From contig NZ_LBMG01000002.1 in assembly GCF_001005315.1 (NCBI RefSeq), positions 62,001 through 126,000 of the forward strand: DNA of 64,000 bases. Direction: 5' to 3'. Both the position numbers and the translations under genes were made by a program. The number at the start of each line of letters is the position of its first letter. Position 1 is the first letter of the stretch. Positions 17,608 through 64,000 of the stretch are shown one piece after another. The stretch is from Kordia jejudonensis (GTDB lineage Bacteria > Bacteroidota > Bacteroidia > Flavobacteriales > Flavobacteriaceae). The notes under the pieces are model-generated. The model was given only the letters and a program-made list of their open reading frames with translations, ran no database searches and had not been told where the DNA came from.

Positions 17608-17823
17608 TTACCAACCTGCATTTCCTCCACTTGCTTGCGCTTCGCACATTGGACGATGTACGGAAAGTCCACAACCTTCATGTAAAAATGTCACAGGTCC
17701 TTTGTCTGGTCCAACTGGAGCGTCATTCCCATTATTTGGCGCCGCTCCTCCAAGAGCATTTGCAGCATCTAATGTTGAAATTCTTTCTTTGACTAACGTT
17801 AACTTTTTGATCTGTTTTTTCAT
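17608..17823 (-). CDS. GG-leader RiPP-like precursor peptide (AAPNNG type)
   Basis: 71 aa. The leader, residues 1-26 ('KKLTLVKERISTLDAANALGG'-like), follows the Bacteroidota pattern of a basic start, LxLxKxxIsxL and a double glycine. The core begins AAPNNG and contains 'VTFLHEGCGLS', only two Cys and several Pro/Gly. It is a paralogue of the peptide at 17974-18207: both cores share AAPNNG, a Pro-rich linker and TFL-x-EGCG-x-S. No modification enzyme is nearby. It could be a lanthipeptide-like or other ribosomal natural-product precursor; a role as a small secreted or structural peptide is not excluded. Confidence 0.7.
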   Translation of the reverse strand: MKKQIKKLTLVKERISTLDAANALGGAAPNNGNDAPVGPDKGPVTFLHEGCGLSVHRPMCEAQASGGNAGW

Positions 17824-17924
17824 TATTTAATTTTTTTTGATTTATATACTTTTCAGTTCATGCTTTTGCTGTCTGTTACCCAAATTATAGAGACAAACAC
17901 AAAAAACTTCATTTATATACAACT

Positions 17925-17952
17925 AAAAAAGCGAGGAAATTCCTCGCTTTTT
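17925..17952 (-). terminator. Terminator after second AAPNNG precursor
   Basis: AAAAAAGCGAGGAA / TTCCTCGCTTTTT hairpin, 22 bp past the stop of the precursor at 17974-18207. Confidence 0.8.
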
Positions 17953-17973
17953 CTTTGTATTATCATTTACTTT

Positions 17974-18207
17974 CTAATATTGACAAGATCCGCATGAGTC
18001 ATCAAAATATGAATTTGGATAACATATACATGCCGAATAGTTTATAGAAGTTCCACAACCTTCACGAAGGAACGTTTGTGGCTTTGCAGGTTCTGGACCA
18101 TAAGGTTCTCCACCATTATTTGGTGCAGCCCCACCTCTGATTCTTCTCCCATTTAACGTGGAAATCGTTTTTTTAGAGATCATTAACTTTTTTGCCTGTT
18201 TTTTCAT
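17974..18207 (-). CDS. GG-leader RiPP-like precursor peptide (AAPNNG type, Cys-rich)
   Basis: 77 aa. The leader 'KKLMISKKTISTLNGRRIRGG' ends in GG, and the core starts AAPNNGG with 'TFLREGCGTS' as in its neighbour. The C-terminus differs, with four further Cys ('SACICY', 'DSCGSCQY'). The upstream DNA of the two genes is also conserved: GGGTAACAGA, then CAAAAG and AACT-AAAAGT-TAT, just before the leaders. They therefore look like a recent duplication of promoter plus gene, with divergence of the core tail. Confidence 0.72.
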   Translation of the reverse strand: MKKQAKKLMISKKTISTLNGRRIRGGAAPNNGGEPYGPEPAKPQTFLREGCGTSINYSACICYPNSYFDDSCGSCQY

Positions 18208-18287
18208 TGTATAAAGTTTTTTAGATTAATACACTTTTTAGTTACTACTTTTGTAATTCTGTTACCCTCGTTTTATTTTTTTAACAT

Positions 18288-19001
18288 ATGAACAAACCTT
18301 TTCGATTTAAAGAATTTACTATTCAGCAAGACAAAACTGCCATGAAAGTTGGAACTGACGGCGTTTTACTTGGCGCTTGGACTTCTGTAGAACACAATCC
18401 GTTTGCTGTGTTAGATATTGGCGCAGGAACTGGTTTGATAGCGCTTCAACTGGCACAACGTTGTCACGCAGAAGTCATTGATGCTATCGAAATTGATTAT
18501 AATGCATACGAACAAGCCGTGGATAATTTTGAAAATTCTCCTTGGAGCGATCGATTGTTTTGCTATCATGCGAGTTTGGATGAATTTGTTGCAGAAATTG
18601 AAGATACGTATGATTTAATTGTGTCCAATCCGCCATTTTACACAGAGAATTATAAAACGGAGAATACACAGCGCGATACAGCACGTTTTACAGATGCGTT
18701 GCCTTTTGACGAACTTTTGAAAGGTGTTTCAAAATTACTAGAACCGACAGGCATATTTTCTACTATTATTCCATGTAAAGAACAGGAACATTTTATCAAT
18801 CTGGCGGAAGCCAATGGATTGTTTCCTCACAAAATATGCAATGTAAGGGGAAATCCTAAAGCCGATTTTAAACGTAGTTTGCTATCCTTTTCTTTTCAAA
18901 AAACGGAAATCGTTACTGAGGAATTAATTATAGAAACAGAGAGACATCAATATACAGATGCTTATATTTCACTAACGAAAGATTTTTATTTAAAATTATA
19001 A
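18288..19001 (+). CDS. trmN6: tRNA1(Val) (adenine(37)-N6)-methyltransferase
   Basis: 237 aa. The class I SAM-binding motif is D43-I-G-A-G-T-G49 and the N6-adenine catalytic motif is N114-P-P-F117. The N-terminal 'FRFKEFTIQQDKTAMKVGTDGVLLGAW' pattern is characteristic of TrmN6/YfiC. It methylates A37 of tRNA-Val. It is transcribed away from the AAPNNG precursor genes. Confidence 0.9.
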   Translation: MNKPFRFKEFTIQQDKTAMKVGTDGVLLGAWTSVEHNPFAVLDIGAGTGLIALQLAQRCHAEVIDAIEIDYNAYEQAVDNFENSPWSDRLFCYHASLDEFVAEIEDTYDLIVSNPPFYTENYKTENTQRDTARFTDALPFDELLKGVSKLLEPTGIFSTIIPCKEQEHFINLAEANGLFPHKICNVRGNPKADFKRSLLSFSFQKTEIVTEELIIETERHQYTDAYISLTKDFYLKL

Positions 19002-19066
19002 CAATTTGTCTTTGTTTTGTGAGATTTCATTAATTACTTTTGTGAATGCGATTTACAAACATTGCG

Positions 19067-19074
19067 TACATTTG
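19067..19074 (+). promoter_or_regulatory. Candidate -7 element for the acyl-CoA dehydrogenase gene
   Basis: TACATTTG matches TAnnTTTG, 31 bp before the ATG. A possible TTG -33 lies at 19040-19042 with a long (24-nt) spacer, so this is tentative. Confidence 0.4.
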
Positions 19075-19105
19075 AGTATAAAAAAATGCTATAAACATAC
19101 AGTCC

Positions 19106-20284
19106 ATGAAACCAGATTTATTCCAAGCTCCTGATTATTACAACTTAGACGAGCTATTGACAGATGAACATAAATTAGTTAGAGACGCTGCCCGCGAGTG
19201 GGTAAAAAGAGACGTTTCGCCTATTATAGAAGATTATGCACAGCGTGCTGAGTTTCCAGAGCAAATTATTGATGGACTGGCAAATATTGGTGCTTTCGGT
19301 CCATATATTCCAGAAGAATATGGTGGCGCAGGATTAGATCAAATTAGTTACGGATTGATTATGCAAGAGATTGAGCGTGGCGATTCTGGAGTTCGTTCTA
19401 CCGCGTCTGTACAATCATCATTGGTGATGTATCCTATTTGGAAGTATGGAAATGAAGAACAGCGTCAAAAATACTTGCCGAAGTTAGCTTCTGGAGAATG
19501 GATGGGATCTTTTGGGTTGACAGAACCTGATCATGGAAGTAATCCTGGTGGCATGACCACGAATTTTAAAGATATGGGCGACCATTATTTATTAAATGGT
19601 GCTAAAATGTGGATTTCAAACTCTCCGTTTTGTCAAGTTGCAGTAGTTTGGGCAAAAAATGAAGAAGGAAGAATTCACGGATTAATTGTGGAGCGCGGTA
19701 TGGAAGGGTTTACTACACCTGAAACGCACAATAAATGGTCATTGAGAGCTTCTGCTACAGGAGAGTTAATTTTTGATAATGTAAAAGTTCCTAAAGAAAA
19801 TTTATTACCAAACAAATCTGGTTTAGGTGCACCACTTGGTTGTTTAGATTCTGCACGTTTTGGTATTGCTTGGGGAGCAATTGGCGCAGCGATGGATTGC
19901 TACGATACTGCGTTACGCTACAGCAAAGAACGTATTCAATTTGGAAAACCTATTGGTCAGTTTCAATTGCAACAAAAGAAGTTAGCTGAAATGATTACTG
20001 AAATTACCAAAGCTCAATTATTAGCTTGGCGTTTGGGCGTAATGCGTGAAAATGGTACGGCAACTTCTGCGCAAATTTCTATGGCAAAGCGTAATAATGT
20101 TGAAATGGCATTAAAAATTGCTCGTGAAGCACGCCAAATGTTAGGCGGAATGGGAATTAGTGGCGAATATTCAATTATGAGACATATGATGAATTTAGAA
20201 AGTGTTGTGACTTATGAAGGAACACACGACATTCACTTATTGATCACAGGTTTAGATGTTACTGGATTGAATGCTTTTAAATAA
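19106..20284 (+). CDS. Acyl-CoA dehydrogenase, glutaryl-CoA dehydrogenase type
   Basis: 392 aa, the usual length. The family features 'GSFGLTEPDHGSNPGGM', 'YSKERIQFGKPIGQFQLQQ' and 'ARQMLGGMGISGEY' are present. The catalytic Glu is E371 in 'VVTYEGTHDIH', followed by the GCDH-like ending 'ITGLDVTGLNAF'. Glutaryl-CoA dehydrogenase oxidises and decarboxylates glutaryl-CoA to crotonyl-CoA in lysine/tryptophan breakdown, using FAD. It is monocistronic, with a strong terminator behind it. Confidence 0.88.
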   Translation: MKPDLFQAPDYYNLDELLTDEHKLVRDAAREWVKRDVSPIIEDYAQRAEFPEQIIDGLANIGAFGPYIPEEYGGAGLDQISYGLIMQEIERGDSGVRSTASVQSSLVMYPIWKYGNEEQRQKYLPKLASGEWMGSFGLTEPDHGSNPGGMTTNFKDMGDHYLLNGAKMWISNSPFCQVAVVWAKNEEGRIHGLIVERGMEGFTTPETHNKWSLRASATGELIFDNVKVPKENLLPNKSGLGAPLGCLDSARFGIAWGAIGAAMDCYDTALRYSKERIQFGKPIGQFQLQQKKLAEMITEITKAQLLAWRLGVMRENGTATSAQISMAKRNNVEMALKIAREARQMLGGMGISGEYSIMRHMMNLESVVTYEGTHDIHLLITGLDVTGLNAFK

Positions 20285-20310
20285 AATAAACAATATACAT
20301 ATATAGACAA

Positions 20311-20337
20311 AAGGAGCGATGATCGCTCCTTTTTTTG
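20311..20337 (+). terminator. Terminator after acyl-CoA dehydrogenase
   Basis: GGAGCG-ATGAT-CGCTCC stem followed by T8. Confidence 0.85.
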
Positions 20338-20422
20338 TGCGCATTTTTTACCGTTGCTTACTGACATTTATCATATTTCTTTTGTTAAAAAAATATAATA
20401 TTAGTAGTACTAAAAAGGAACT

Positions 20423-21274
20423 ATGTTGACATCAGAAGATTTTCAAAATTTTAAAAATAAGCAAGCGTTTATGCAGCTTTTTAAAACGAAGGAAAGTGAT
20501 ACAAAAGTGCAGGAAATATTGAACTCTATTCGTTATGAAAAAGAGTTGCTTCAACTTCAAGGCGAATTGGTAGATTTACAACGTTGGGTTGCTGATCATG
20601 GCAAACGCGTATGCATCATCTTTGAAGGAAGAGATGCCGCTGGAAAAGGCGGTTCTATTCGTCGTTTTGTAGAACATTTAAATCCACGCTCAATGCGAGT
20701 TGTAGCGCTAACAAAACCTACCAATATTGAACGTGGACAATGGTATTTTAGACGCTATATAAAAGAACTTCCTAATCCTGGCGAAATAGTCTTCTTTGAC
20801 AGAAGTTGGTACAACCGAGCTGTTGTAGAACCTGTAATGGGCTTCTGTACCGAAAGAGAATATCAAAAATTTATGGTACAAGTCACGGAATTTGAACACA
20901 TGTTGTATGAAGACGGTGTAATTCTTATCAAATTTTGGTTTTCTATCGCAAAAGAAGAACAGGAAAAACGATTCATTTCAAGACTCAATAGCCCATTGAA
21001 AAGATGGAAATTTAGTCCTGTAGATCAGGAAGGACAAAATCGTTGGGACGATTATACTTTTTACAAAGAAAAAATGTTTAGCAAAACGCACACGACAATT
21101 AGTCCATGGATCATTATAAAAACCAACAATAAGAAACAGGCTCGATTAGAAAGTATGCGCTATGTACTTTCTAAATTCAATTACAAAGAAACTGACAACA
21201 ACGCCAAGCAACTTATCATTCCAGATCCAAATATTGTACAACGCTATCATCGAACTGCAAAACAAATCGATTAA
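20423..21274 (+). CDS. Polyphosphate kinase 2 family protein (copy 1)
   Basis: 283 aa. Walker A is 'FEGRDAAGKGGSIRR' (G69-K75 region) and Walker B is 'IVFFDRSWYNRAVVEPV' (D126/R127). The length and motifs match single-domain PPK2 enzymes, which transfer phosphate between polyphosphate and nucleotides. The stop is 3 bp before the start of a second PPK2 gene, so both are made from one transcript. Which nucleotide is preferred cannot be told from the sequence alone. Confidence 0.9.
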   Translation: MLTSEDFQNFKNKQAFMQLFKTKESDTKVQEILNSIRYEKELLQLQGELVDLQRWVADHGKRVCIIFEGRDAAGKGGSIRRFVEHLNPRSMRVVALTKPTNIERGQWYFRRYIKELPNPGEIVFFDRSWYNRAVVEPVMGFCTEREYQKFMVQVTEFEHMLYEDGVILIKFWFSIAKEEQEKRFISRLNSPLKRWKFSPVDQEGQNRWDDYTFYKEKMFSKTHTTISPWIIIKTNNKKQARLESMRYVLSKFNYKETDNNAKQLIIPDPNIVQRYHRTAKQID

Positions 21275-21277
21275 TTT

Positions 21278-22066
21278 ATGGGAACAAAACTAACAGATAG
21301 AGAGTTAAAAAAATTAAACTCTAAAAAAGGTTTGAAAATATTCTTAAAAGAAGACAATCCTTCCATTTCCAAAGTTTTACGAACACTTGCATACGAAGAA
21401 CAATTAGTAAAATTACAAGAAGAGCTCATAAAACTCCAAAACTGGGTTGTTGAAAATAATAAAAAGGTACTTATTCTTTTTGAAGGAAGAGATGCGGCTG
21501 GAAAAGGTGGTGCTATCAGAAGAATTACAGAACATTTAAATCCAAGAGAATTTAGAGTTGTTGCGCTTCCAAAACCGACTGAGGAAGAAACTGGTCAATG
21601 GTATTTTCAACGCTACATTAATCAATTACCAAAAGAAGGAAAGATCGTCTTTTTTGACAGAAGCTGGTACAACAGAGCTATTGTGGAGCCTGTAAATGAT
21701 TTTTGCACTAAAGAAGCGTATGAAATATTTATGAATCAAGTAAATGATTTTGAACGTATGATTACTGAATCAGGTATTATACTAATCAAATTTTACTTTT
21801 CGATTTCTAAAGATGAGCAAGCGAAACGTTTTGAAGATATAAAAACGAGTATTGTGAAAAAGTGGAAATTTAGCAATGTAGATCGAAGAGCTTTAGAGTT
21901 GTGGGATCAATATACCAGTTATAAAAAGAAGATGTTTCAAAAAACGGATACAAAGATTGCTCCGTGGATTATTGTAAAAGCTAACAAGAAATCAAAAGCT
22001 CGGATAGAAGCTATTGCACATATTTTAAGACGCATTCCGTATACAGGGAAAAAGCTGAATAACTAA
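21278..22066 (+). CDS. Polyphosphate kinase 2 family protein (copy 2)
   Basis: 262 aa paralogue of the gene before it, with the same 'LFEGRDAAGKGGAIRR' and 'IVFFDRSWYNRAIVEPV' motifs. The N- and C-termini are diverged ('GTKLTDRELKKLNSKKGLK' at the start). Two different PPK2s in tandem could form a hetero-oligomer or cover different nucleotides. Its stop codon overlaps the stop of a small convergent gene on the other strand. Confidence 0.9.
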   Translation: MGTKLTDRELKKLNSKKGLKIFLKEDNPSISKVLRTLAYEEQLVKLQEELIKLQNWVVENNKKVLILFEGRDAAGKGGAIRRITEHLNPREFRVVALPKPTEEETGQWYFQRYINQLPKEGKIVFFDRSWYNRAIVEPVNDFCTKEAYEIFMNQVNDFERMITESGIILIKFYFSISKDEQAKRFEDIKTSIVKKWKFSNVDRRALELWDQYTSYKKKMFQKTDTKIAPWIIVKANKKSKARIEAIAHILRRIPYTGKKLNN

Positions 22067-22841: not shown

Positions 22842-23105
22842 TTATAGCGGAGTATCAACTCTAGCATCAAAACCAGATGGCTCCATTGGTGCTTGTTGCG
22901 CTGGCGCACAATAGTAATACGAAGGACAACCTCCTAAACGAGAATCGCACATGTGATTAGAACATGCTGCAATTAACGTGTTTGTTGGACAACCATTCGT
23001 AACACAAAGCATGTTTCCACTGGCTGCTCCTCCAGTTACTTCGTCTGAAAGGTTAGACACTAATTTTTTGTTTAAGCGTAAGCTTTTCAAATTCTTTTTT
23101 TTCAT
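22842..23105 (-). CDS. GG-leader class I lanthipeptide-like precursor
   Basis: 87 aa. The leader 'MKKKNLKSLRLNKKLVSNL' carries the FNLD-equivalent 'LRLNKK', and 'EVTGG' marks the likely cleavage site. The core has six Cys ('MLCVTNGCPTNTL', 'AACSNHMCDS', 'GGCPSYYYC') with Thr/Ser available for thioether rings, and ends in a Pro/Asp-rich tail. It has its own terminator and a TAGATTTG -7 box 29 bp upstream. Leader type and Cys density support a ribosomal natural-product precursor; no processing enzyme is nearby. Confidence 0.75.
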   Translation of the reverse strand: MKKKNLKSLRLNKKLVSNLSDEVTGGAASGNMLCVTNGCPTNTLIAACSNHMCDSRLGGCPSYYYCAPAQQAPMEPSGFDARVDTPL

Positions 23106-23229: not shown

Positions 23230-23421
23230 TTAGCAAACCATTCCGTCAATAGACTCTACACCACATTCTGTAATGATTTTAGTTCTTGTTTTTACAGTAG
23301 GATTGCATCTTTCCACCGACACAAGATCTGCATTATTTAACTCACCACCGTTAATGTTGTAAGGATTCACTAATACTGCAATGCTTAATTTTTTTAGATT
23401 TAGTTTTCTGTGTTTTTTCAT
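23230..23421 (-). CDS. Divergent GG-leader precursor-like peptide
   Basis: 63 aa. The leader 'MKKHRKLNLKKLSIAVL' followed by 'NPYNINGGE' keeps LxLKK and GG but lacks the usual ISNL. The core has three Cys ('ERCNPTVK', 'TECGVES', 'MVC') and several Thr. It sits between another precursor and a TPR-AraC regulator, all on the minus strand. It is less typical than the others, so it could also be a different GG-leader class. Confidence 0.6.
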   Translation of the reverse strand: MKKHRKLNLKKLSIAVLVNPYNINGGELNNADLVSVERCNPTVKTRTKIITECGVESIDGMVC

Positions 23422-25353: not shown

Positions 25354-25593
25354 TTATACCTCTTGTATATCTGCTCTACACGGGTGAAAAATAACTGGTA
25401 ACGAAATACAATCTGTCATTGGAATAGAAATATCACAAGCTTCTTGCGTACATCCTACAGTTGGACACGAAATTATTGACCAACAAGGAACAAAACTAAT
25501 TGACTCTGCTTGTCCACCTACGGCATTTCTTTTTTCTAAGTTAGAAATCGATCTTTTGTTAAGTTTTAAGCTTTTAAGGTTCTTTTTTTTCAT
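25354..25593 (-). CDS. GG-leader class I lanthipeptide-like precursor
   Basis: 79 aa from the ATG at 25593. An upstream in-frame ATG (25623) would place ten residues over the promoter and before the conserved 'MKKKNLKSLKLNKRSISNL' start, so it is rejected. Cleavage is likely after 'NAVGG'. The core has six Cys ('VPCWSIISCPTVGCTQEAC', then 'DCIS' and 'HPCRAD') and many Ser/Thr. It is monocistronic and just upstream (in transcription) of the TPR-AraC regulator. Confidence 0.75.
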   Translation of the reverse strand: MKKKNLKSLKLNKRSISNLEKRNAVGGQAESISFVPCWSIISCPTVGCTQEACDISIPMTDCISLPVIFHPCRADIQEV

Positions 25594-30728: not shown

Positions 30729-30992
30729 ATGTGGATGAAATTATAAGGTTTTGCGTGCTAAAAATTGATCCGCCAAATATAATTAAAATATATGGATAGC
30801 ATCGTCAAAAAGGTAGGATTAGCAATCTTTTTTCTGCTGTTGAAATAGAATGAAATCTACTTGGCTTTCGGTTTAAAAATGTAATTGACAATATTTTCAC
30901 AAAAAGTGTAACGTTTTATGATAAATGCACACTTACTTCATAATTATGCGATTAATCAATATTTTTACAAAAATTTACAAAATATAAAAGCT

Positions 30993-32759
30993 ATGAACTT
31001 TTTAAAACGTGTACTATCAACAATTATCGGAGTTGGTATTTTCTTTGGAATTTGCTTCTTTTTGCTGATTCTTTTAATTTCTATTTCAGGAGGATCGGAC
31101 TCTGACATGATTGTCGTAAAAAGTAATTCCGTCTTAGAACTTAATCTTGACAAACCTATTAATGATTATGCAGGAAAGTTTGATTATGGCGACTTGACAT
31201 TTTTTCCAAATGAGCCTGATTATGATGGTTTATTCAATATTATTGATGCTATTGCATATGCAAAGAACGATGATAAGATTAAGGGAATTACAATTTCAAA
31301 CAACAGTATTATTGCTGGAATGGCACAAACAAAAGCTATCCGTGATGCGTTGGTAGATTTTAAAGAATCTGGAAAATTTATTGTAGCGTACGGAGATTAC
31401 ATTTCACAAAAAGATTATTACTTAAATTCAGTTGCAGATACAATTTACTTAAATCCAGTGGGCGCTTTAGATTTTAAAGGTTTGGCAATGGAACGCATGT
31501 ATTACAAGGAGTTTCAAGAAAAATATGGCGTAAAAATGGAAGTAATTCGTCACGGAAAATATAAAAGTGCCGTTGAAGGTTATATAAGTCAGGAAATGAG
31601 TGACGCGAATAGAGAACAAATTTCTGTATTCTTAAATTCTATTTGGGACGAAATGCGAAAGGAAATAGGAGAAAGCAGAAACCTAACGCCAGAGCAACTA
31701 AACACCTTAGCTGACGAACTAGCAGGAAGAACTGCAGAACTTGCGTTGAGTTCAAAATTAATAGACAAAATTGGATATCAAGATGAATTTCAAGCGGGCA
31801 TTCAAAAAGCGATGGGACAAAATAGTGATGTAAATAGTATTGATATTTACGACTATGCGGAATATGCTGGTAAAAAACCAAAATCGACAAGTGCTAGTGA
31901 TCGTATCGCGGTTATTTATGCACAAGGAGAAATTATATATGGCGAAGGAGATGAAGCAACTATTGGACAAGGTGTTATTAACAAAGCGTTAAAGAAAGTA
32001 CGTGAAGATAAAAATGTAAAAGCAATTGTATTACGTGTAAATTCGCCTGGAGGAAGTGCTTTGGCAAGTGAGTTGATCTGGAGAGAAATTGAAGTGACGA
32101 AAAAAACAAAACCCGTAATTGTTTCTATGGGAGATTTGGCAGCTTCTGGCGGATATTACATTGCGTGTAATGCCGATAAGATTTTTGCCGAACCAAATAC
32201 CATTACAGGAAGTATTGGTGTTTTTGGAACGGTTCCAAACATGCACGAATTGGCTAATGACTTAGGAATTAACGCAGAACAAGTTGGCACTAATAAAAAT
32301 GCTGTTGATTACAGCGTTTTTGAACCAATGACCGACGAACAACGTGCCTTGATAAAAGAAGGAATTGAAGACATTTATGACTTGTTTACACAACGTGTTG
32401 CAGATGGAAGAAATATGACACAAACTGGAGTAGATGAAATTGCACAAGGACGTGTTTGGACAGGAAACGATGCCTTAAAAATTGGATTGGTTGATGAAAT
32501 TGGAGGTTTAGATATGGCTATCTTGGAAGCTGCAAAAACAGCTGGAATTGAAGAATACCGCATTAAAGAATTGCCTGTGTATGAAAAAGATTTCCAAAGT
32601 ATCTTAGATCAGTATACTGGTGGATTTATTCAATCTAAAGAAGCTATCTTAAAAGAAGAATTGGGAGACAAACATTACATGATGTTACAGAAGATGAAGA
32701 AAATGACGCAGATGGAAGGACCACAATTATTATTACCATACGACATAGAGATTAAATAA
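30993..32759 (+). CDS. sppA: Signal peptide peptidase SppA (67K type)
   Basis: 588 aa from the ATG at 30993. An upstream in-frame ATG at 30918 would put 25 polar residues before the membrane anchor 'FLKRVLSTIIGVGIFFGICF', so the later start is preferred. Two S49 domains are present. The catalytic Lys is in 'RHGKYKSAVEGY' and the Ser near residue 384 is in 'GDLAASGGYYIA', the Ser-Lys dyad of SppA. It degrades cleaved signal peptides in the inner membrane. Confidence 0.93.
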   Translation: MNFLKRVLSTIIGVGIFFGICFFLLILLISISGGSDSDMIVVKSNSVLELNLDKPINDYAGKFDYGDLTFFPNEPDYDGLFNIIDAIAYAKNDDKIKGITISNNSIIAGMAQTKAIRDALVDFKESGKFIVAYGDYISQKDYYLNSVADTIYLNPVGALDFKGLAMERMYYKEFQEKYGVKMEVIRHGKYKSAVEGYISQEMSDANREQISVFLNSIWDEMRKEIGESRNLTPEQLNTLADELAGRTAELALSSKLIDKIGYQDEFQAGIQKAMGQNSDVNSIDIYDYAEYAGKKPKSTSASDRIAVIYAQGEIIYGEGDEATIGQGVINKALKKVREDKNVKAIVLRVNSPGGSALASELIWREIEVTKKTKPVIVSMGDLAASGGYYIACNADKIFAEPNTITGSIGVFGTVPNMHELANDLGINAEQVGTNKNAVDYSVFEPMTDEQRALIKEGIEDIYDLFTQRVADGRNMTQTGVDEIAQGRVWTGNDALKIGLVDEIGGLDMAILEAAKTAGIEEYRIKELPVYEKDFQSILDQYTGGFIQSKEAILKEELGDKHYMMLQKMKKMTQMEGPQLLLPYDIEIK

Positions 32760-32832: not shown

Positions 32833-33036
32833 CTATTTGTCATAACATGCTGGAACCGTAGAAGGTGCTGGACCAGTAGTATTACCGCACGCTAATGTAC
32901 AAGCAAAGCTACAAAACCTTACACTTCCTGGACAAAAAGTATTGTCGCTTACTAATCCTCCTTTTACTTCGTTATCAACCAAGTTAGAGATTTTGTTTTT
33001 GTTTAATGATAAACTTTTTAAATGTTGCTTTTTCAT
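32833..33036 (-). CDS. GG-leader class I lanthipeptide-like precursor
   Basis: 67 aa. The leader 'MKKQHLKSLSLNKNKISNL' and 'NEVKGG' precede a core with five Cys ('NTFCPGSVRFCSFACTLAC', 'PACYDK') and many Ser/Thr. Its 5' region (promoter plus about 100 bp) is a close copy of that of the next gene upstream (33367-33546), while the cores are unrelated. It is the last of six precursor genes on this strand. Confidence 0.77.
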   Translation of the reverse strand: MKKQHLKSLSLNKNKISNLVDNEVKGGLVSDNTFCPGSVRFCSFACTLACGNTTGPAPSTVPACYDK

Positions 33037-34183: not shown

Positions 34184-34411
34184 TTATACTGTTAATGCAT
34201 CGTCTGGTGCCTGTATTGTATGACAAATACGAGAAACACCACCTGTACAATCTGCCGTACAATTTGCTTGTGTACAGTTGAACCACGTTTGTGCTGGCGT
34301 ACATCCATCTGTACAACCGTCTGAAAATCCGCCACCATTGATTGCGTCACTATTTAAGTTAGAAATTGATTTTTTATTTAATTCGAGTCCTTTTAATGCT
34401 TTTTTCTTCAT
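34184..34411 (-). CDS. GG-leader precursor peptide, CTDGC family (operon gene 3)
   Basis: 75 aa. The leader 'MKKKALKGLELNKKSISNL' and 'DAINGG' precede a core 'CTDGCTPAQTWFNC', 'ANCTADC' and 'RICHT' with six Cys and many Thr/Ser. It is nearly identical to the upstream gene (34449) until the last few residues ('IQAPDDALTV'). It is 37 bp downstream of that gene with no terminator between, so this is a tandem-duplicated operon ending in a strong terminator. Confidence 0.8.
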   Translation of the reverse strand: MKKKALKGLELNKKSISNLNSDAINGGGFSDGCTDGCTPAQTWFNCTQANCTADCTGGVSRICHTIQAPDDALTV

Positions 34412-34448: not shown

Positions 34449-34670
34449 TTAAATATGATCATTTTGTGCTTGTAATGTGTCGCAAATACGAGAAACACCA
34501 CCTGTACAATCTGCCGTACAATTTGCTTGTGTACAGTTGAACCAAGTTTGTGCTGGTGTACATCCATCTGTACAACCATCTGAAAATCCGCCACCATTGA
34601 TTGCGTCACTATTTAAGTTAGAAATTGATTTTTTGTTTAATTCGAGTCCTGTTAATGCTTTTTTCTTCAT
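34449..34670 (-). CDS. GG-leader precursor peptide, CTDGC family (operon gene 2)
   Basis: 73 aa. The leader differs from gene 3 at one position in its first 20 residues (T for K at position 7), and the core is the same except in the tail ('CDTLQAQNDHI'). Six Cys, with Thr directly before or after several of them. It lies 33 bp from gene 1 and 37 bp from gene 3; the spacers are also duplicates ('ATATAAAGTTTTGTGAGTTG'). Confidence 0.8.
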   Translation of the reverse strand: MKKKALTGLELNKKSISNLNSDAINGGGFSDGCTDGCTPAQTWFNCTQANCTADCTGGVSRICDTLQAQNDHI

Positions 34671-34703: not shown

Positions 34704-34925
34704 TTAAATATGATCATTTTGTGCTTGTAATGTGTCGCAAATGCTTGAAGCGCCACCGTGGCAATCTGCTGTACAATCTGCTTGTGTACAGTTTAACCAA
34801 GTTTGTGCTGGTGAACAACCGTCTGTACAACCATCTGAAAATCCGCCACCGTTGATAGCTTCTTTATTTAAGTTAGAAATTGATTTTTTGTTTAAAGCGA
34901 GTCCTTTTAATGCTTTTTTCTTCAT
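34704..34925 (-). CDS. GG-leader precursor peptide, CTDGC family (operon gene 1)
   Basis: 73 aa. The leader 'MKKKALKGLALNKKSISNL' and 'EAINGG' precede a core 'CTDGCSPAQTWLNC', 'ADCTADC', 'HGGASSIC' with six Cys. Its tail 'CDTLQAQNDHI' equals that of gene 2, so gene 2 looks like a hybrid between 1 and 3 (leader and core of 3, tail of 1). It is the first gene of the operon; the promoter upstream (TAGCCTTG near 34978) is weak. Confidence 0.8.
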   Translation of the reverse strand: MKKKALKGLALNKKSISNLNKEAINGGGFSDGCTDGCSPAQTWLNCTQADCTADCHGGASSICDTLQAQNDHI

Positions 34926-35122: not shown

Positions 35123-35839
35123 ATGACGATAGCAGACAAAAAATTAGCTTCAAAAATATACTTGTATTTAGCAGCACTCTTTATTACTTCTTTGGTTGTT
35201 TCAAATTTAATTTTTCAAAAATTTTTCTATTGGTATCCATTTGATATTGAGATTTTTGGAGAAAGTTTGTTTAAAATATCGGTAGGATTACTTCCCTATC
35301 CAATTACATTTTTGATTACAGATGCCATTTCTGAGATTTACGGAAAGAAAAAAGCAAATCAGGTGGTAATTGCTGGAATTTTTGCCTCTTTTTTCTCGTT
35401 AGGAATTATTTATGTCTCGCAAAATGTTCCTGCTTTACCCAATTCGCCCGTGAGCGATGAAACATTTACACAAGTATTTGGAAACGCACCATTAGCCGTA
35501 TTTGCGTCGATGTTGTCCTATTTGTTTGCTCAGTTTATTGACATTCAACTGTATCACTTTTGGAAAAATTTGACCAAAGGAAGACATTTATGGTTACGGA
35601 ATAACTTTTCTACATTTGCTTCTCAATTTGTAGATACATTCTCCGTAATTACACTTTTATGTGTATTTGAAATATTGCCGTGGGATTTATATTTGGGCTT
35701 ACTTGCTAGCGGATTTATCTTTAAAGTATTAGTCGCATTTATAGACACTCCTTTTTTATATTTAATAGTATATATATTCAGAAAACGTTTTGGCTTGGAA
35801 ATCGGAGAAGAGATTGATTTAGATAGTCATACCGCATAA
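35123..35839 (+). CDS. Queuosine precursor transporter (VUT/YhhQ family)
   Basis: 238 aa integral membrane protein with about six hydrophobic helices. The motif 'LLPYPITFLITDAISEIYGKKKA' is characteristic of YhhQ/VUT proteins, which import queuine or preQ0/preQ1 for tRNA modification. It is divergent from the precursor operon, with about 200 bp between. The region upstream shows no preQ1 riboswitch that I can recognise. Confidence 0.87.
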   Translation: MTIADKKLASKIYLYLAALFITSLVVSNLIFQKFFYWYPFDIEIFGESLFKISVGLLPYPITFLITDAISEIYGKKKANQVVIAGIFASFFSLGIIYVSQNVPALPNSPVSDETFTQVFGNAPLAVFASMLSYLFAQFIDIQLYHFWKNLTKGRHLWLRNNFSTFASQFVDTFSVITLLCVFEILPWDLYLGLLASGFIFKVLVAFIDTPFLYLIVYIFRKRFGLEIGEEIDLDSHTA

Positions 35840-47598: not shown

Positions 47599-48411
47599 TT
47601 ATTCTACGGGATTAATGAAATGTTGCACCAATGCCTTTTTGTAGGTTTTGGAAACAGGAATTTCGGTCACATTTGGCTTTAAGATCAAAATAGTTTGTGC
47701 AGATTCACGTTTCCATTCTAAAAAGTGAGCAGGATTTATTAGAAACGAACGATGTGTTTTTAGCAAGAATGGAAATTGAGCTTGCAAGACAGATATTTTG
47801 TTTCGAAAGAGATCGCTTTTCAATTCATCTTGTAATAAGTAATGTACTTTTACATAGTTGTTTGCCGATTCAATAAAAACGAGTTCCGCTTCTTTTATGT
47901 GTAATACTTCAGCTTTGTTTTCTCCTTTGATGACAATGTTTGTTTCTTTCGGCTCGACCGATATGGTTTCCGAATTTGGTCTATTTCCAAACATCCAACG
48001 TAAAAATAGCATAACTGGAAGAATCAGGAAAACTGTTGGAATGACTTGTTGGAAAAAGAAGTATGAAAATTTGTGCGCATACGGATCATTTTCTAACAGG
48101 ATGAATTTGAAAAAAGCATATCCAATTCCTCCTGAAAAAATCATCATTGAAAGTATGAATAGTAGTTCTTGAACGATGCTCCATTTTCCAGAAAATTTAT
48201 ATAAAAATCTCTGTATGGGAATGGTAATGATATAGGTTAGAATTCCAACCATGGCATATCCGAAACACGCTAATAGTCGTTCTGCTTTTGGCAATTCGTA
48301 TAGATCAAAAGGTTCTACATAGTAGAAAAAGAGAAATAACCAAAACCCAATAAAAAATCCAACCAATAGCTGTTTCCGTATTGATTGGATGTAAAAATTT
48401 TGTATCTGCAT
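47599..48411 (-). CDS. Membrane-bound LytTR-family transcriptional regulator
   Basis: 270 aa. Four predicted transmembrane helices in residues 1-150 ('LLVGFFIGFWLFLFFYYV', 'YAMVGILTYIITIPI', 'LLFILSMMIFSGGIGYAFF', 'VIPTVFLILPVMLFL') precede a LytTR DNA-binding domain (about 165-265: 'EAELVFIESANNYVKVHY', 'FLLKTHRSFLINPAHF', 'IPVSKTYKKAL'). There is no receiver domain, so it is a one-component sensor-regulator. It may control the serine hydrolase next to it. It starts 17 bp after the clpX stop on the same strand. Confidence 0.85.
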   Translation of the reverse strand: MQIQNFYIQSIRKQLLVGFFIGFWLFLFFYYVEPFDLYELPKAERLLACFGYAMVGILTYIITIPIQRFLYKFSGKWSIVQELLFILSMMIFSGGIGYAFFKFILLENDPYAHKFSYFFFQQVIPTVFLILPVMLFLRWMFGNRPNSETISVEPKETNIVIKGENKAEVLHIKEAELVFIESANNYVKVHYLLQDELKSDLFRNKISVLQAQFPFLLKTHRSFLINPAHFLEWKRESAQTILILKPNVTEIPVSKTYKKALVQHFINPVE

Positions 48412-48428
48412 TATTTACTAGAAATTAT

Positions 48429-49661
48429 TTACGATACTGCTTTTAGTTTTTTGATGGCTACTTTTGATAGCTTTTTCTCAGCGTATGTTTTGCTGATTTT
48501 CAGTTCTTTTTCATCAGATCCTGGCAATTCGAACATCGCATCCGTTAAGATCGTTTCACATAACGAACGTAATCCACGTGCACCAAGTTTGTATTCTATT
48601 GCTTTTTCTACGATGAATTCTAACGCGCCTTCTGTAATATCAAACTCAATATTATCCATTGCAAATAATTTTGCATATTGTTTGATGATTGCATTTTTTG
48701 GCTCCGTTAAGATCGCACGTAATGTGTTTGCATCTAACGGATTCATATGCGTCAACACAGGCAAACGACCAATTATTTCAGGAATTAAACCGAAATCTTT
48801 TAAGTCTTTTGGAATGATGTATTGCAACAGATTGTCCGCATCAATTACCTCTTCATCTTTGGAAGCACTGTAACCAACGGCTTGCATATTCAATCGTCGT
48901 GTAATGACTCTTTTGATACCATCAAAAGCTCCACCCGCAATAAATAAGATGTTTTCTGTATTTACTTCAATGAATTTTTGATCAGGATGTTTACGTCCTC
49001 CTTTTGGCGGAACATTTACAACCGTTCCTTCTAAAAGTTTTAGCAACGCTTGTTGTACACCTTCTCCAGAAACATCACGTGTAATGGATGGATTGTCACT
49101 TTTACGTGCAATTTTATCAATTTCATCAATAAATACAATACCGCGTTCAGCTTTTTCAAGATTGTAATCTGCGGCTTGTAATAAACGTGTTAAGATACTT
49201 TCGACATCTTCTCCTACATAACCAGCTTCTGTTAAAACGGTAGCATCTACAATAGCCAGCGGAACATTTAGCATACGTGCAATGGTTTTTGCCATTAACG
49301 TTTTTCCTGTTCCTGTTTCTCCAACCATGATGATATTACTTTTTTGAATTTCAATACTATCACTTGATGGTGGTTGTAACAGTCGTTTGTAGTGATTGTA
49401 CACGGCAACCGACATTACTTTTTTGGTGGCTTCTTGCCCGATGATGAATTCGTCTAAGAATTCTTTGATTTGTTTTGGTTTGCGCAGTACCAATTCTGAT
49501 GATAATTCATCATTACTGGCTTGTTTTGATTCTTCTAAAACAATTCCATGCGCTTGTTCAATACATCTGTCGCAGATATGAGCATCTAAACCTGCGATTA
49601 ACAGATTTGTTTCTGGCTTTTTTCTACCACAGAATGAACATTCTAATTCTTCTTTCGCCAT
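48429..49661 (-). CDS. clpX: ATP-dependent Clp protease ATP-binding subunit ClpX
   Basis: 410 aa. N-terminal C4 zinc finger ('[14 protein letters not shown]...ICDRC', residues about 9-33), Walker A '[15 protein letters not shown]', Walker B '[14 protein letters not shown]' and the AAA+ C-terminal domain. It unfolds substrates for ClpP. It is in the conserved order tig-clpP-clpX. Confidence 0.97.
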
Positions 49662-59613: not shown

Positions 59614-62238
59614 ATGCAAAAAAAGTACCTAAAATTATTTTTACTAGTATCATTACTGTTTTGCAGTATCGCGACACATGCGCAGGAGACGACGTTTGAT
59701 AAAGGAAAGAAGTACACCATTGGCGGTATTAAAGTGACCGGATTGAAAAGTTATAACGAACAAACCGTTGTAACCTATACCCAATTAAGAGAAGGACAAG
59801 AAATCTTAGTGCCAGGAGAAGAAATTAGTGGAGTTATTAAAAAACTCTGGGGATTAGAACTATTTAGTGATATCAATTTCTATATAGAACGCATCGAAGG
59901 TGACAAGATATTTTTAGAACTAAATATCAAAGAATTGCCGACACTTTCAGAAGTAGATGTACGCGGTTTAAAAGAAAGTAAAATTGCGACAATTATTAAA
60001 GAAACGGACCTTAAAAAAGGGAAGAAGATTACGGAAAGTTTTATTGCGAATACAAAAAACTACATTCAAAATAAATATAAAAAACAAGGATATTATCGTA
60101 CTAAAGTAGATATCACTACAGTGGAAGATACGGTAACTACGGAGTCCAAAAATGCCATGAAAATGATTGTAAATATCGATCGTGGTAGCAAAATAAAAGT
60201 AAAGAAAATTCGCTTCACTGGGAATGAGCAATTCAAGGACAAAAAGCTACGAAAAGCCATGCGCAACACGAAGCAAAAGTTCTTTTTACGAGTTTTCAAA
60301 TCTTCTAAATTTATCCCAGAAGACTACAAAGAAGATTTAGCTTCTATTATTGAAAAATACAAAGAAAATGGATTTCGTGATGCCAGAGTTACTAAAGATT
60401 CTATCAGCTGGAACGACGATAATACGATCAATATAGACATTGCACTTGAAGAAGGTAGAAAATACTATTTCGGAGACATTACTTTCTTAGGAAACTCAGT
60501 ATACACGGATGACGAATTAAGACGATTATTAGGAATCAACAAAGGAGACACTTATAATGGTGTATTACTTGAAAAACGTATTGCAGACGAAACTGATCCT
60601 GATGCTGACGATTTAACAAATAAGTATCAAAACAATGGATACTTATTCTCTAACATTAACCCTGTTGAGGTTTCTGCTAAAAATGATACCATCAACTTTG
60701 AAATTCGTATCATCGAAGGAAAACCTGCCTATTTCAACAACATTACAGTTGTAGGAAACGAAAAAACAAACGATCATGTAATTTATCGTGAAATCCGTAC
60801 GAAACCAGGAGAACTATACGGAAAGGAAAAAATTATACGTACCATTCGTGAATTAGGACAATTAGGTTTCTTTGATGCTGAACAAATTAAGCCAGAAATT
60901 AAAAATCCTGATCCAAATAGTGGAACTGTTGACGTTGAGTTTAGTGTTGCAGAACGTGGAGGAAGTCAAATAGAACTACAAGGTGGTTATGGTGGTGGAG
61001 GTTTCATCGGAACCTTAGGACTATCATTCAACAACTTCTCTATTAAAAACCTATTTAATGGTGATGCATACAAACCTTTACCTACAGGAGATGGACAAAA
61101 ACTATCCTTACGTGCACAAGCAAGTAGATTTTTCCAAACCTTTAGTTTCTCATTCACAGAACCATGGTTGGGAGGAAAAAAACCTGTACAGTTTACAACA
61201 TCTTTATCACATACTGTACAATTCTTATTTAACCCACAAACAAATAATGCTGACAAAAGCAGACGTTTCTTAATTACTGGATTATCTGTAGGATTGGCAA
61301 AACGATTAGCTGAACCGGATGATTTCTTTGTATTATCGCAAGCGCTAAGTTTTCAACATTACAACCTAAAAAATTATAACACAGGATTATTTACCTTTGG
61401 TGATGGATTCTCAAACAACTTCTCATATACAGCTGCATTGAGTAGAAACTCATCGGGTCCAAACCCAATATATCCAATGTCTGGATCTGACTTTTCCATC
61501 AGTGCAAAACTTTCTTTACCATACTCTTTATTTAACAATGTAGATTATGGAGATCTTGAAAATCAAGAAGAATTCCAAGAAAGAGATGCCAATGGAAATT
61601 TCTTAAATGCTAATGCCGGGCAACCTGGAGAACCTGCAAATTTAGGTCCTACATTAGAAGAAGGAGAAGTACCGATTGTTGACCAAGGAAAAGTAGATCA
61701 AGAAAAATTTAAGTGGTTAGAATTCTATAAAATTAAATTTAAAGGTGCTTGGTACCAACGAATTGTTGACAAATTAGTCCTAAAAACAGAAGCAAATTTT
61801 GGTTTCTTAGGTGCGTATAACAACGACCGAGGTATTATTCCTTTTGAGCGATTCTTCGTTGGTGGAGACGGTTTAGGACAGTTTAGTTTAGACGGTAGAG
61901 AAGCAATTGCACTTCGTGGATATCCAAATCAATCACTTTCTGATTTAGATGGAGGTACTATTTACAATAAATTTTCGTTAGAGTTACGTTATCCGATTAC
62001 TTTGAAACAAACAGCATCGATTTATGGGTTAACATTTTTAGAAGCTGGTGGATCATTTAATTCGTTTAAAGAATATAGTCCGTTTGAATTAAATCGCTCA
62101 GCTGGAGCAGGATTGCGTATATTTATGCCAGCATTCGGATTATTAGGTATTGATTTTGGATACGGATTTGACCCAATTCCAGGAACAACACAACGAAATG
62201 GATGGGAAACACATTTCATAATCGGGCAGCAATTTTAA
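59614..62238 (+). CDS. bamA: Outer-membrane assembly factor BamA (POTRA-barrel)
   Basis: 874 aa from the ATG at 59614 ('MQKKYLKLFLLVSLLF', signal peptide ending 'ATHAQE'); 59578 would lie in uppS. Five POTRA repeats (about residues 35-450: 'GGIKVTGLKSYNEQTV', 'KVKKIRFTGNEQFKDK', 'NNITVVGNEKTNDHV'), then a 16-strand-type barrel with 'GGDGLGQFSLDGREAIALRGY' and a C-terminal 'HFIIGQQF'. An acidic insertion ('NLGPTLEEGEVPIVDQGKVD') sits in a barrel loop. Essential for insertion of outer-membrane proteins. Confidence 0.94.
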   Translation: MQKKYLKLFLLVSLLFCSIATHAQETTFDKGKKYTIGGIKVTGLKSYNEQTVVTYTQLREGQEILVPGEEISGVIKKLWGLELFSDINFYIERIEGDKIFLELNIKELPTLSEVDVRGLKESKIATIIKETDLKKGKKITESFIANTKNYIQNKYKKQGYYRTKVDITTVEDTVTTESKNAMKMIVNIDRGSKIKVKKIRFTGNEQFKDKKLRKAMRNTKQKFFLRVFKSSKFIPEDYKEDLASIIEKYKENGFRDARVTKDSISWNDDNTINIDIALEEGRKYYFGDITFLGNSVYTDDELRRLLGINKGDTYNGVLLEKRIADETDPDADDLTNKYQNNGYLFSNINPVEVSAKNDTINFEIRIIEGKPAYFNNITVVGNEKTNDHVIYREIRTKPGELYGKEKIIRTIRELGQLGFFDAEQIKPEIKNPDPNSGTVDVEFSVAERGGSQIELQGGYGGGGFIGTLGLSFNNFSIKNLFNGDAYKPLPTGDGQKLSLRAQASRFFQTFSFSFTEPWLGGKKPVQFTTSLSHTVQFLFNPQTNNADKSRRFLITGLSVGLAKRLAEPDDFFVLSQALSFQHYNLKNYNTGLFTFGDGFSNNFSYTAALSRNSSGPNPIYPMSGSDFSISAKLSLPYSLFNNVDYGDLENQEEFQERDANGNFLNANAGQPGEPANLGPTLEEGEVPIVDQGKVDQEKFKWLEFYKIKFKGAWYQRIVDKLVLKTEANFGFLGAYNNDRGIIPFERFFVGGDGLGQFSLDGREAIALRGYPNQSLSDLDGGTIYNKFSLELRYPITLKQTASIYGLTFLEAGGSFNSFKEYSPFELNRSAGAGLRIFMPAFGLLGIDFGYGFDPIPGTTQRNGWETHFIIGQQF

Positions 62239-62287
62239 GCCATTTTTATTTTTGGCACGATATTTTCTATTAACAAACCGACACAGT

Positions 62288-63178
62288 ATGAAAACTAAAG
62301 TTCTTTTATTATTAACAATGCTTTTTGCACTATCATCACAAGCACAAAAACGTGTAAATGGTGCAAGAGTTGGCTACATCGATATGGAGTACATTTTAGA
62401 AAATGTAACTGCGTATAAAGAAGCAAATACACAGCTTGAAGCAAAAGCGCAACGCTGGAAAGCTGAAATGCAAAAAAAGCAAGGTGAGATTGATCAAATG
62501 AAAAAAAATCTCAGCGCCGAGCGTGTATTACTCACAAAAGAATTGGTAGATGAGCGTGAAGAAGAAATTCAACTATTAGCAGAAGAATTAGAAAAATACC
62601 AACAAGATCGTTTTGGTCCTAATGGTAGCTTAATGATTCAACGTCAGAATTTGGTAAAACCAATTCAAGACCAAGTATTAAACGCGGTTCAAGACATTGC
62701 TAAGAAAAGAAGATATGATTTTGTATTTGACAAGTCAGCAGATGTTGTAATGCTCTATTCTTCAAAGAAATTTGATATTAGCGATCTTGTATTAAGAACG
62801 ATTAATAGAGATGTAAAACGAGAAGGAAGAGCAGCCAAACTCAAAAAGCAAAGTGAAAAAACGAAGTTTGATGATACGGAGAAAGAAGTAGATCCTGAAG
62901 TAGAAGCAAAAAAGCAAGCAGTTGCCGATAAGAAAGCGGAACGTCAAAAACTACTCGATGAGCGAAAGCAAAAACGTTTGGAAGATCGTGAAGCGAAGAA
63001 AAAAGCATACGAAGAAAAGCGTAAAAAATTAATCGCTGATCGTGAAGCAAAGAAAAAAGCAGCTGAAGAAAAACGAAAAAAACGCGCTGAAGAAAAAAAG
63101 AAGAAAGAAGAAGAACGCGAGCAGCAGAAAGAAGAAAATGAAAATGAAGGCAGCGGCGGCGCAGGAAATGGAAAATAA
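62288..63178 (+). CDS. OmpH/Skp-family periplasmic chaperone with long charged C-terminal tail
   Basis: 296 aa from the ATG at 62288 (62252 would add a non-signal start). Signal peptide ('VLLLLTMLFALSSQAQ'), then OmpH helices ('RVGYIDMEYILENV ... DIAKKRRYDFVFDKS'). After about residue 200 comes a Lys/Glu/Arg-rich coiled-coil with repeated 'DREAKKKA-EEKRKK' units, ending in Gly-rich 'GSGGAGNGK'. The tail is absent from ordinary Skp (about 160 aa). It is downstream of bamA, as is usual. Confidence 0.88.
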   Translation: MKTKVLLLLTMLFALSSQAQKRVNGARVGYIDMEYILENVTAYKEANTQLEAKAQRWKAEMQKKQGEIDQMKKNLSAERVLLTKELVDEREEEIQLLAEELEKYQQDRFGPNGSLMIQRQNLVKPIQDQVLNAVQDIAKKRRYDFVFDKSADVVMLYSSKKFDISDLVLRTINRDVKREGRAAKLKKQSEKTKFDDTEKEVDPEVEAKKQAVADKKAERQKLLDERKQKRLEDREAKKKAYEEKRKKLIADREAKKKAAEEKRKKRAEEKKKKEEEREQQKEENENEGSGGAGNGK

Positions 63179-63222
63179 CAAAAATTAAATATAAATAACA
63201 CTTAAAGTAAATAATTGAAATC

Positions 63223-63732
63223 ATGAAACAAATGAAAAAGCTAATAGCTATTGCAGTCTTATTTTTTGGAGTAGTAAGTTTTACAAATGCACAAACTAAA
63301 GTTGCCCATATTGATACGCAAAAATTAATTAGTGCAATGCCAGAAATGAAAGCTGCTAAGACAGAATTCGACAAGTTACAACAATCATTAGGAGCAGATA
63401 TTGAAGCGTCAATTACAGAGTACAGAAACAAATTAACTCAATATACAAACGAAGCGCCTACAAAAACTGATGCTGAAAATGCTAGTAGAAAGCAAGAATT
63501 GGCTGAACTAGAAGCACGTATACAAGAAGCAAGAGCTGCTGCTGACAAAACAACACAGCAAAAGTATATTGATCTTACAAAGCCTATTCAAGAAAGAGCT
63601 TTGGCTGCAATTCAAAAAGTTGCCAAAAGTCTTGGTTATGCTTACGTTTTAGATGCAACTGCTGGTTCAGGATTACTTCTTGCAGATGGAAAAGACTTGA
63701 TGGCAGAGGTTAAAAAAGAATTAGGCATTTAA
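63223..63732 (+). CDS. OmpH/Skp-family periplasmic chaperone
   Basis: 169 aa. Signal peptide ('LIAIAVLFFGVVSFTNAQ'), standard Skp length, coiled-coil arms ('EFDKLQQSLGADIEASITEY') and 'IQKVAKSLGYAYVLDAT'. It delivers outer-membrane proteins to BamA. Paralogue of the gene 44 bp before it. Confidence 0.92.
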   Translation: MKQMKKLIAIAVLFFGVVSFTNAQTKVAHIDTQKLISAMPEMKAAKTEFDKLQQSLGADIEASITEYRNKLTQYTNEAPTKTDAENASRKQELAELEARIQEARAAADKTTQQKYIDLTKPIQERALAAIQKVAKSLGYAYVLDATAGSGLLLADGKDLMAEVKKELGI

Positions 63733-63819
63733 TTGCAAAAAACTCAAAAAAATTCATAATAATTTATACTATTTCTTGTAAAAATATGTTATTTTAGAAC
63801 TAACATTAAAATATATATT

Positions 63820-64000
63820 ATGAAGAAAAAAAGTTTAAAAAATTTAGGATTAAAAAAAGAGTCAATCTCTAATTTAAGTAATACTGTTACTGGTGGAGAA
63901 AGAGGAGGAGAAAGTACAAACATGTTTTGTCCTACTACATATTGTAGTCAATTCACTTCTTGTGACTTCTGCCCAACATCAGTATGTGACACGCAAGTTA
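63820..64000 (+). CDS. GG-leader class I lanthipeptide-like precursor, cut by window edge
   Basis: ATG at 63820; open to the window end (60 codons seen). It begins MKKKSLKNLGLKKESISNL, then 'NTVTGG' and a core with five Cys so far ('MFCPTTYCSQFTSCDFCPTS', 'VCDTQ') and many Thr/Ser. It is the only plus-strand member in this window, 87 bp after an ompH/skp gene, with no terminator I can identify between. Confidence 0.75.
   Translation, partial: MKKKSLKNLGLKKESISNLSNTVTGGERGGESTNMFCPTTYCSQFTSCDFCPTSVCDTQV

Follow-up and report, generated by a model that had tools for sequence, protein, structure and literature searches.

The closest described parallel to the peptides discussed here is found among the prochlorosins and synechococsins of cyanobacteria, for which one enzyme likewise serves precursors that are scattered over the genome and join a conserved leader ending in GG to variable cores (PMC10783134; here and below, comparisons with published work refer to the available text of each paper). 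Precursor counts there are 29 for ProcM, 79 for SyncM, and 143 where two enzymes are present. ProcM and SyncM are class II LanM enzymes with Nif11-type leaders on their substrates, whereas the system of Kordia jejudonensis (Bacteroidota; Flavobacteriaceae) described here combines a split LanB and a LanC with a leader bearing the motif LxLxKxxIS. It is represented by twelve small peptide genes in a stretch of 64,000 nucleotides (the window; assembly GCF_001005315.1, contig NZ_LBMG01000002.1, positions 62,001 to 126,000 of the forward strand), which belong to a family of about 240 genes. The peptides are likely to be class I lanthipeptide precursors that share one LanB/LanC/C39 set, and proteins joining tetratricopeptide repeats (TPR) to an AraC-type DNA-binding domain, most of them paired with a precursor gene, may sense peptide. 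The whole would be a class I counterpart of the prochlorosins, given the action that may be inferred for the synthetase on the pool.

Precursors of this type are known from the phylum. Class I LanA peptides of Bacteroidetes carry the same LxLxKx5L motif and GG end, often with a C39 protease in the cluster (PMC7268733); that survey was made within seven genes of LanC only, and states itself that such a limit missed the dispersed prochlorosins. In contrast to those clusters, nearly all of the Kordia pool lies on contigs other than that of LanB, and mining methods that look near enzymes miss nearly all of it. The TrRiPP study found Kordia rich in ribosomally synthesised and post-translationally modified peptides (RiPPs), counted as many as 176 precursors in one Bacteroidota genome, and remarked on a LanC with a nucleotidyltransferase beside Kordia precursors, which a locus on contig C160 fits (PMC11118758). 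Its precursors were called as lanthipeptide or radical S-adenosylmethionine (SAM) type by a classifier, and its available text, supplements aside, states neither a single LanB, nor a shared enzyme set, nor regulator pairs. A lanthipeptide cluster has also been noted in K. antarctica (PMC7477175), and many clusters in Kordia (PMC10734526).

Regulation has been considered as well. Tetratricopeptide-like genes occur in two Bacteroidales RiPP clusters and a helix-turn-helix (HTH) gene in a third, for which gene regulation upon pheromone binding was suggested after the example of other bacteria (PMC10352776); in the available text this is a remark on single clusters of gut Bacteroidales, with no TPR-AraC family, fixed gene order or statistics. 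Since these two reports exist, neither the large number of precursors (PMC11118758) nor the idea of TPR-based regulation (PMC10352776) is new. Not found in the literature searched (subscription papers, preprints and supplements lay outside it) were the arrangement of one LanB and one exporter over a genus, the turnover of precursors and the fixed TPR-AraC pairing, to which the remark in PMC10352776 comes nearest. The RRNPP quorum-sensing pairs likewise place a receptor with TPR and HTH beside the gene of a small exported peptide (PMC10075063). Their receptors are intracellular and were surveyed in Firmicutes and viruses, whereas the Kordia proteins have an AraC-type HTH and one predicted membrane span, beside a peptide with a lanthipeptide-type leader. 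Of the RRNPP hallmarks, a TPR receptor beside a peptide gene is thus seen in Kordia (23 of 29 loci, below), and a cytoplasmic receptor, according to prediction, is not.

The twelve peptides had been listed in a first-pass annotation of the window made from its letters alone, and the list stands. Eleven are complete open reading frames (ORFs) that start with ATG on the minus strand and encode 59-87 amino acids (aa), each named by its low end, and the twelfth (63820, plus strand) continues past the window edge and ends beyond it, with 75 aa in all. The peptide genes and the regulator gene among them are as follows (HMM, hidden Markov model).

17608-17823, minus strand: leader peptide, short leader variant, 71 aa; NF038158 and NF038153 below cut-off; own HMM E 7e-7
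17974-18207, minus strand: leader peptide, short leader variant, 77 aa; NF038153 below cut-off
22842-23105, minus strand: leader peptide, 87 aa; own HMM E 2e-10
23230-23421, minus strand: divergent leader peptide, candidate signal peptide, 63 aa; 65 bp behind the TPR-AraC regulator; weak match to TIGR04149
23487-25226, minus strand: TPR-AraC regulator, 579 aa; Pfam TPR_12 and HTH_18; AlphaFold mean pLDDT 84.9
25354-25593, minus strand: leader peptide, 79 aa; own HMM E 3e-11
32833-33036, minus strand: leader peptide in the S49-Vut_1 interval, 67 aa
33367-33546, minus strand: leader peptide in the S49-Vut_1 interval, 59 aa
33789-34019, minus strand: leader peptide in the S49-Vut_1 interval, 76 aa; NF038153 over cut-off
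34184-34411, minus strand: leader peptide in the S49-Vut_1 interval, 75 aa; NF038153 over cut-off
34449-34670, minus strand: leader peptide in the S49-Vut_1 interval, 73 aa; close tandem copy of 34184
34704-34925, minus strand: leader peptide in the S49-Vut_1 interval, 73 aa; NF038153 over cut-off
63820-64000, plus strand: leader peptide, truncated in the window, 75 aa when complete (C112:125820-126047)

Most of these peptides had been said to start with MKKK, which is true of seven of the twelve, the other five starting MKKQ, MKKR or MKKH. The leader given for them, LK-x-L-x-LNKK-x-ISNL before a GG, fits nine, some loosely (V for I, one T for K), and three deviate: peptides 17608 and 17974 have a shorter leader (KLTLVKERISTL and KLMISKKTISTL, respectively) and peptide 23230 a divergent one, LNLKKLSIAVL, with TIGR04149, below cut-off, as its sole NCBIfam match. 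NF038153 (lant_leader_L1a) matches nine of the ten window peptides compared with NCBIfam, three over its cut-off and six below, and gives no match to the tenth; peptides 34449 and 63820 lay outside this comparison. The absence of processing enzymes from the window, also claimed at first pass, agrees with a Pfam search (E<=0.001) of 40 of its 42 ORFs of at least 150 aa, many of them household genes, which gave no LanB, LanC, C39 peptidase, ATP-binding cassette (ABC) exporter, radical SAM or YcaO match. The two ORFs outside that scan, 48385-48873 and 62841-63431, overlap scanned genes, and ORFs below 150 aa, the peptides excepted, were outside it as well.

Such enzymes are encoded elsewhere in the genome. 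A profile search found exactly one LanB N-domain, on contig C143, where 20 kb of sequence encode a C39-ABC exporter (735 aa), an HlyD protein, a LanB C-domain, the LanB N-domain and a LanC, together with three leader peptides and one TPR-AraC regulator. The LanB is split into two adjacent genes (PF04738 and PF14028, both over cut-off), of which the N-domain protein matches NisB and 9g04 and the C-domain protein 9g04 and 5ehk. The LanC is over the cut-off of PF05147, and its WCYG and CHG segments, presumably the zinc-site motifs, align with solved LanC-like proteins. The exporter can be aligned over its whole length with a bacteriocin transporter (4ry2), with P-glycoproteins scoring higher overall, and its C39 match is strong; a second C39 match, on C101, is barely over cut-off (22.9 vs 22 bits) and a third falls below. 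LanC-like matches in the genome number five, on C143, C160 and C2 and as two domains inside larger proteins; all five proteins match TIGR03897 in part, below cut-off, the LanM dehydratase domain itself lying outside the search. A central set elsewhere in the genome had been proposed at first pass, a proposal to be given up if the genome encoded neither RiPP enzymes nor a GG-peptidase exporter; both exist, and as a statement of gene content read from the sequence the proposal is well supported.

The pool itself is large. An HMM of the leader was built because NF038153 leaves most leaders below its cut-off: over the genome the latter gives at least 128 matches at E<=1 (among the best 150 of 220 candidates), of which 27 of the 128 listed pass the cut-off, six of them only with neighbours in frame, and it was dropped as the sole counter. 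Iterated and read at E<=0.05 for N-terminal matches, the leader HMM yielded 182 rows among 3,212 small ORFs, or 181 without one duplicate, vs 0 of 2,921 ORFs of the reversed DNA (two N-terminal matches there at E<=1). A leader regular expression, composed after the peptides had been seen, found 77 ORFs in the fetched DNA vs 0 in the same DNA reversed. The figure of 181 is conservative, since ORFs with a match starting behind residue 6 (for example by a longer upstream start) were dropped. These genes lie in 0.81 Mb selected around family matches, and a random sample of twenty 20-kb stretches (400 kb), taken outside the fetched parts from the 32 contigs of known length, held five more in four stretches, which extrapolates to 238 leader genes over the genome (Poisson interval 199 to 314). 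The 186 genes seen fall into 98 groups (gap up to 600 bp), with 50 single genes and 48 multi-gene groups, 45 of the latter wholly on one strand. Cores average 43 aa among the 181 precursors; all contain Cys, 177 of them two or more, and 180 contain Cys plus Ser/Thr. Cys makes up 11.7% of the cores, 0.02% of the leaders and 0.8% of 319 long ORFs, and GG is present in 170 of the 181.

The same arrangement is seen across the genus: 11 Kordia genomes have exactly one LanB apiece, and at least 112-150 leader matches per genome. The five C143 proteins for modification and transport are found together in all eight LanB loci of named Kordia (L046-L052, L063), with identities of 96-98% for the exporter, 72-92% for HlyD, 91-97% for LanB-C, 87-97% for LanB-N and 85-95% for LanC, the C39 exporter being the most conserved of the set, above LanB or LanC. 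The LanB of this genome shares 97% identity with its counterpart in an uncultured Kordia isolate and 91% with the one in K. algicida OT-1. LanB occurs in 15 of 149 Flavobacteriaceae genera, and all six genera that match the Kordia leader profile (E<=0.001) have it, a co-occurrence with a p of 3.6e-7 (3.6e-6 without this genome) that ignores kinship; at E<=0.01, NF038153 finds eight genera, seven with LanB and the eighth by a match internal to a frame of 500 aa. Of 20 named LanB loci, 19 have leader peptides within 10 kb of the gene, and the remaining one is an 8-kb contig; six Aquimarina loci have both LanB and LanC, and scattered leader genes are found in two other genomes as well (G077 and G138).

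Turnover of the pool is visible between an S49 peptidase gene (30918-32759) and a Vut_1 gene (35123-35839), an interval syntenic in all 11 Kordia genomes. It holds six leader genes in the window and 4, 1, 1, 1, 4, 3, 2, 1, 0 and 0 elsewhere, all on the minus strand, and the cores are mostly unlike between species, near-identical in L151/L153 and recognisably alike in L154/L155/L156. The description of the substrates as a large, dispersed and diversifying pool is borne out by these numbers. From genes that lie singly or in small tandem groups, precursors would be recognised by the single LanB through the LxLxKxxIS leader and dehydrated at Ser/Thr, LanC would close the thioether rings, and the C39 exporter would cut after GG and export the product, such that one enzyme set may give rise to hundreds of products, provided that it acts on the dispersed peptides. 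One LanB/LanC pair with about 240 substrates would represent a natural library roughly three times the 79 of SyncM (PMC10783134), of use both in studying the tolerance of leader-guided enzymes for variable cores and in making lanthipeptide libraries.

The pairing of leader genes with regulators goes beyond the first-pass annotation, and one pair lies in the window, where the TPR-AraC gene stands 65 bp before peptide 23230. On C143, LanB and the leader genes have a paralogue of it between them. By BLAST, the fetched DNA contains 14 paralogues, all with a leader gene within 400 bp, 13 of them on the same strand; among ORFs of 400 aa or more, a same-strand leader gene 40-140 bp downstream follows 12 of 13 regulators vs 1 of 241 others (p 1.5e-18). 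Because most of the fetched regions had been picked for their leader genes, the genome was also searched with the regulator alignment alone, which gave at least 38 matches at E<=1e-20 (among the best 150 of 181 candidates). The best 30 loci were examined, the remaining eight including several partial matches; L205 is cut by a contig end and untestable, and 23 of the other 29 have a leader peptide 66-126 bases downstream on the same strand, counting L212, where the peptide lies at about 100 bases with an HMM E of 0.01. In the LanB loci of named Kordia, all 11 regulators have a peptide 85-91 bases behind them, and in those of Aquimarina, read by eye, 12 of 15 have one within 500 bp; regulators are present in 14 of the 20 named LanB loci. 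In Aquimarina acroporae (L057:2614-7774) three regulators stand in tandem, with a peptide behind the last one only.

The window regulator has a hydrophobic N-terminus, a TPR superhelix, a long helix and an AraC-type HTH. Its AlphaFold model (27 rows) reaches a mean predicted local distance difference test (pLDDT) of 84.9 and a predicted template modelling score (pTM) of 0.60, and resolves the superhelix, a long helix at residues 379-442 and the HTH domain. That helix is the part that carries a predicted transmembrane (TM) segment in the paralogues, a TM-like segment being predicted near residue 385-415 in 11 of 12, with the window copy under threshold; an N-terminal hydrophobic segment is predicted over threshold in seven of 12. 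The protein would span the inner membrane, exposing its TPR domain to the periplasm and keeping its HTH on the cytoplasmic side. It would sense a peptide, in the simplest case the one encoded next to it, and would activate peptide genes nearby, while the copy beside LanB would tune the central set. About two dozen leader genes behind apparent membrane-sensor genes hint at an unstudied peptide signalling system. Nisin, itself a lanthipeptide, induces its own pathway through the two-component system NisRK, whereas the Kordia candidate is a single-protein regulator. To regard each regulator and the leader gene behind it as a receptor-peptide pair is an inferred and bolder step than to propose the central set. 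Bolder still, and put forward tentatively as a scheme with the odds against it, would be multichannel peptide communication in Kordia and Aquimarina, in which some two dozen single-protein membrane receptors, with the gene of a cognate lanthipeptide-like pheromone immediately downstream of each, switch on the pool, the pheromones being matured by the shared LanB/LanC and, in Kordia, exported by the same C39 protein. Such pairs would give the Bacteroidota a testable peptide signalling system and a possible switch for these products.

Several observations pull the other way, both for the shared enzymes and for the pairs. Only three of the 181 leader genes share a contig with LanB, all three outside the window, and it is for these three alone that precursors lie beside the enzymes, as is expected of class I lanthipeptide systems; GG is missing from its expected place in 11 of 181 precursors. 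The Kordia leader profile finds no match in nine of the 15 genera with LanB, so that LanB does not imply a Kordia-type leader, and the six Aquimarina loci have neither a C39 exporter nor an HlyD relative within 10 kb of LanB. Two further LanCs (C160, C2) and two LanC-like domain proteins could take part of the pool, as could three grasp-with-spasm maturases and two other radical SAM proteins. Among the regulators, L208, L210, L211 and L213 are divergent and lack a leader gene behind them, in L214 it stands as far as 383 bp away and in L193 it is on the opposite strand. Lastly, sensor and core distances correlate over 22 pairs (Mantel r 0.35, p 0.0006) no better than HTH and core distances (likewise 0.35), an equality by which joint duplication explains the correlation without receptor-peptide co-evolution, and co-evolution was set aside.

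It is an even bet that each TPR-AraC protein is an ordinary regulator which controls the peptide gene behind it and senses a cue other than the peptide, such as a nutrient, stress or prey. Adjacency is as compatible with regulation of a target as with reception of a ligand, TPR domains are known for many binding partners, and the paired cores are still lanthipeptide-like. The best Foldseek matches, moreover, are designed TPRs and LGN rather than bacterial peptide receptors; the Rap protein with its peptide (4gyo) comes 37th (E 7.6e-6), which together with the match of the regulator profile to RapF (E 2e-10, one of many TPR proteins matched on whole-sequence score) speaks for peptide sensing, albeit from below other TPR folds. 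This Rap likeness is a resemblance of predicted fold and no proof of peptide binding. Also at odds with ordinary regulation is the distinctness of the 23 paired peptides, which have lower leader scores than the 169 others and less Cys (7.8% vs 12.0% of the core, p 2e-8), and which read IA in 11 and IS in eight at the leader position where 142 of the 169 in the pool read IS; the 169 may themselves contain unrecognised pairs.

Far less probable is a division of the pool among enzyme systems, in which the orphan LanC of C160, the grasp-with-spasm enzymes and the radical SAM maturases each modify a subset. That LanC stands with its nucleotidyltransferase among four leader genes (L015:7559-11831), the genome does encode the three grasp-with-spasm maturases and two further radical SAM proteins, and peptide 23230 matches TIGR04149 weakly. 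LanC, however, requires Ser/Thr already dehydrated by a dehydratase, and the genome has a single LanB N-domain. The three grasp-with-spasm SPASM maturases (L181, L182 and L184, on C145, C150 and C163) all exceed the cut-off of TIGR04193, yet no leader-HMM peptide (E<=0.05) lies within 1.5 kb of the five SPASM genes. The LanC of C2 goes with a HopA1 protein and a kinase, as in another lanthipeptide class, and was ruled out as a member of the central set.

In other systems a GG leader by itself is enough for export through C39 transporters, and the dispersed peptides might leave the cell through the GG-peptidase transporter as unmodified, Cys-rich (disulfide) bacteriocins or effectors, with LanB and LanC serving their neighbours only. 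The few leader genes on the LanB contig and the greater conservation of the exporter over LanB and LanC among Kordia species would suit such a division of labour, which is nonetheless improbable, and somewhat more so than a division of the pool: across genera the leader profile goes together with LanB, one leader HMM recognises the peptides beside LanB and the dispersed ones alike, and Ser/Thr lies within nine residues of a Cys in 168 of the 169 pool cores. Least likely of all, dispersed copies that are mostly silent or decaying duplicates, with few peptides made, would account for the 0 to 6 leader genes in one interval and for a 33-aa copy at C136:45574, but not for the Cys kept in all 181 cores, the GG kept in 170, or the at least 112-150 leader matches kept in each of 11 genomes.

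Upstream of the precursors, the Bacteroidetes -7 promoter box showed no enrichment, and inverted repeats in general were more frequent than in shuffles and no more frequent than upstream of other genes. One inverted repeat, TAYGG-N5-CCRTA, is perfect in 10 of 175 leader-gene upstream regions at -61 to -76 (for example C112:18607, C137:69389 and C163:16772) vs 4 of 304 control genes and 0 of 875 shuffles, and is possibly a shared operator. The element TTTATAAA precedes 30 of the 175 leader genes vs 15 of the 304 control genes and 34 of the 875 shuffles, and by eye often lies inside short inverted repeats right behind paired regulators.

Just past the window end, a further leader gene (C112:126180-126413, minus strand) encodes a core with repeated CGTNN-like units. 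The C2 locus (L014:542-7522) is a row of genes for an S8 peptidase, a 478-aa protein of GPTGTQGCT-type repeats, an APH-like kinase, a HopA1 family protein and the LanC, a row presumably akin to a lanthipeptide locus of class V-like make-up, the repeat protein being the putative precursor. The two larger proteins with LanC-like domains (625-650 aa; L137:7344-10140 on C156 and L138:5833-8684 on C146) each adjoin a protein of about 295 aa that starts MKIVQSFWSKP, and form a recurring pair with it.

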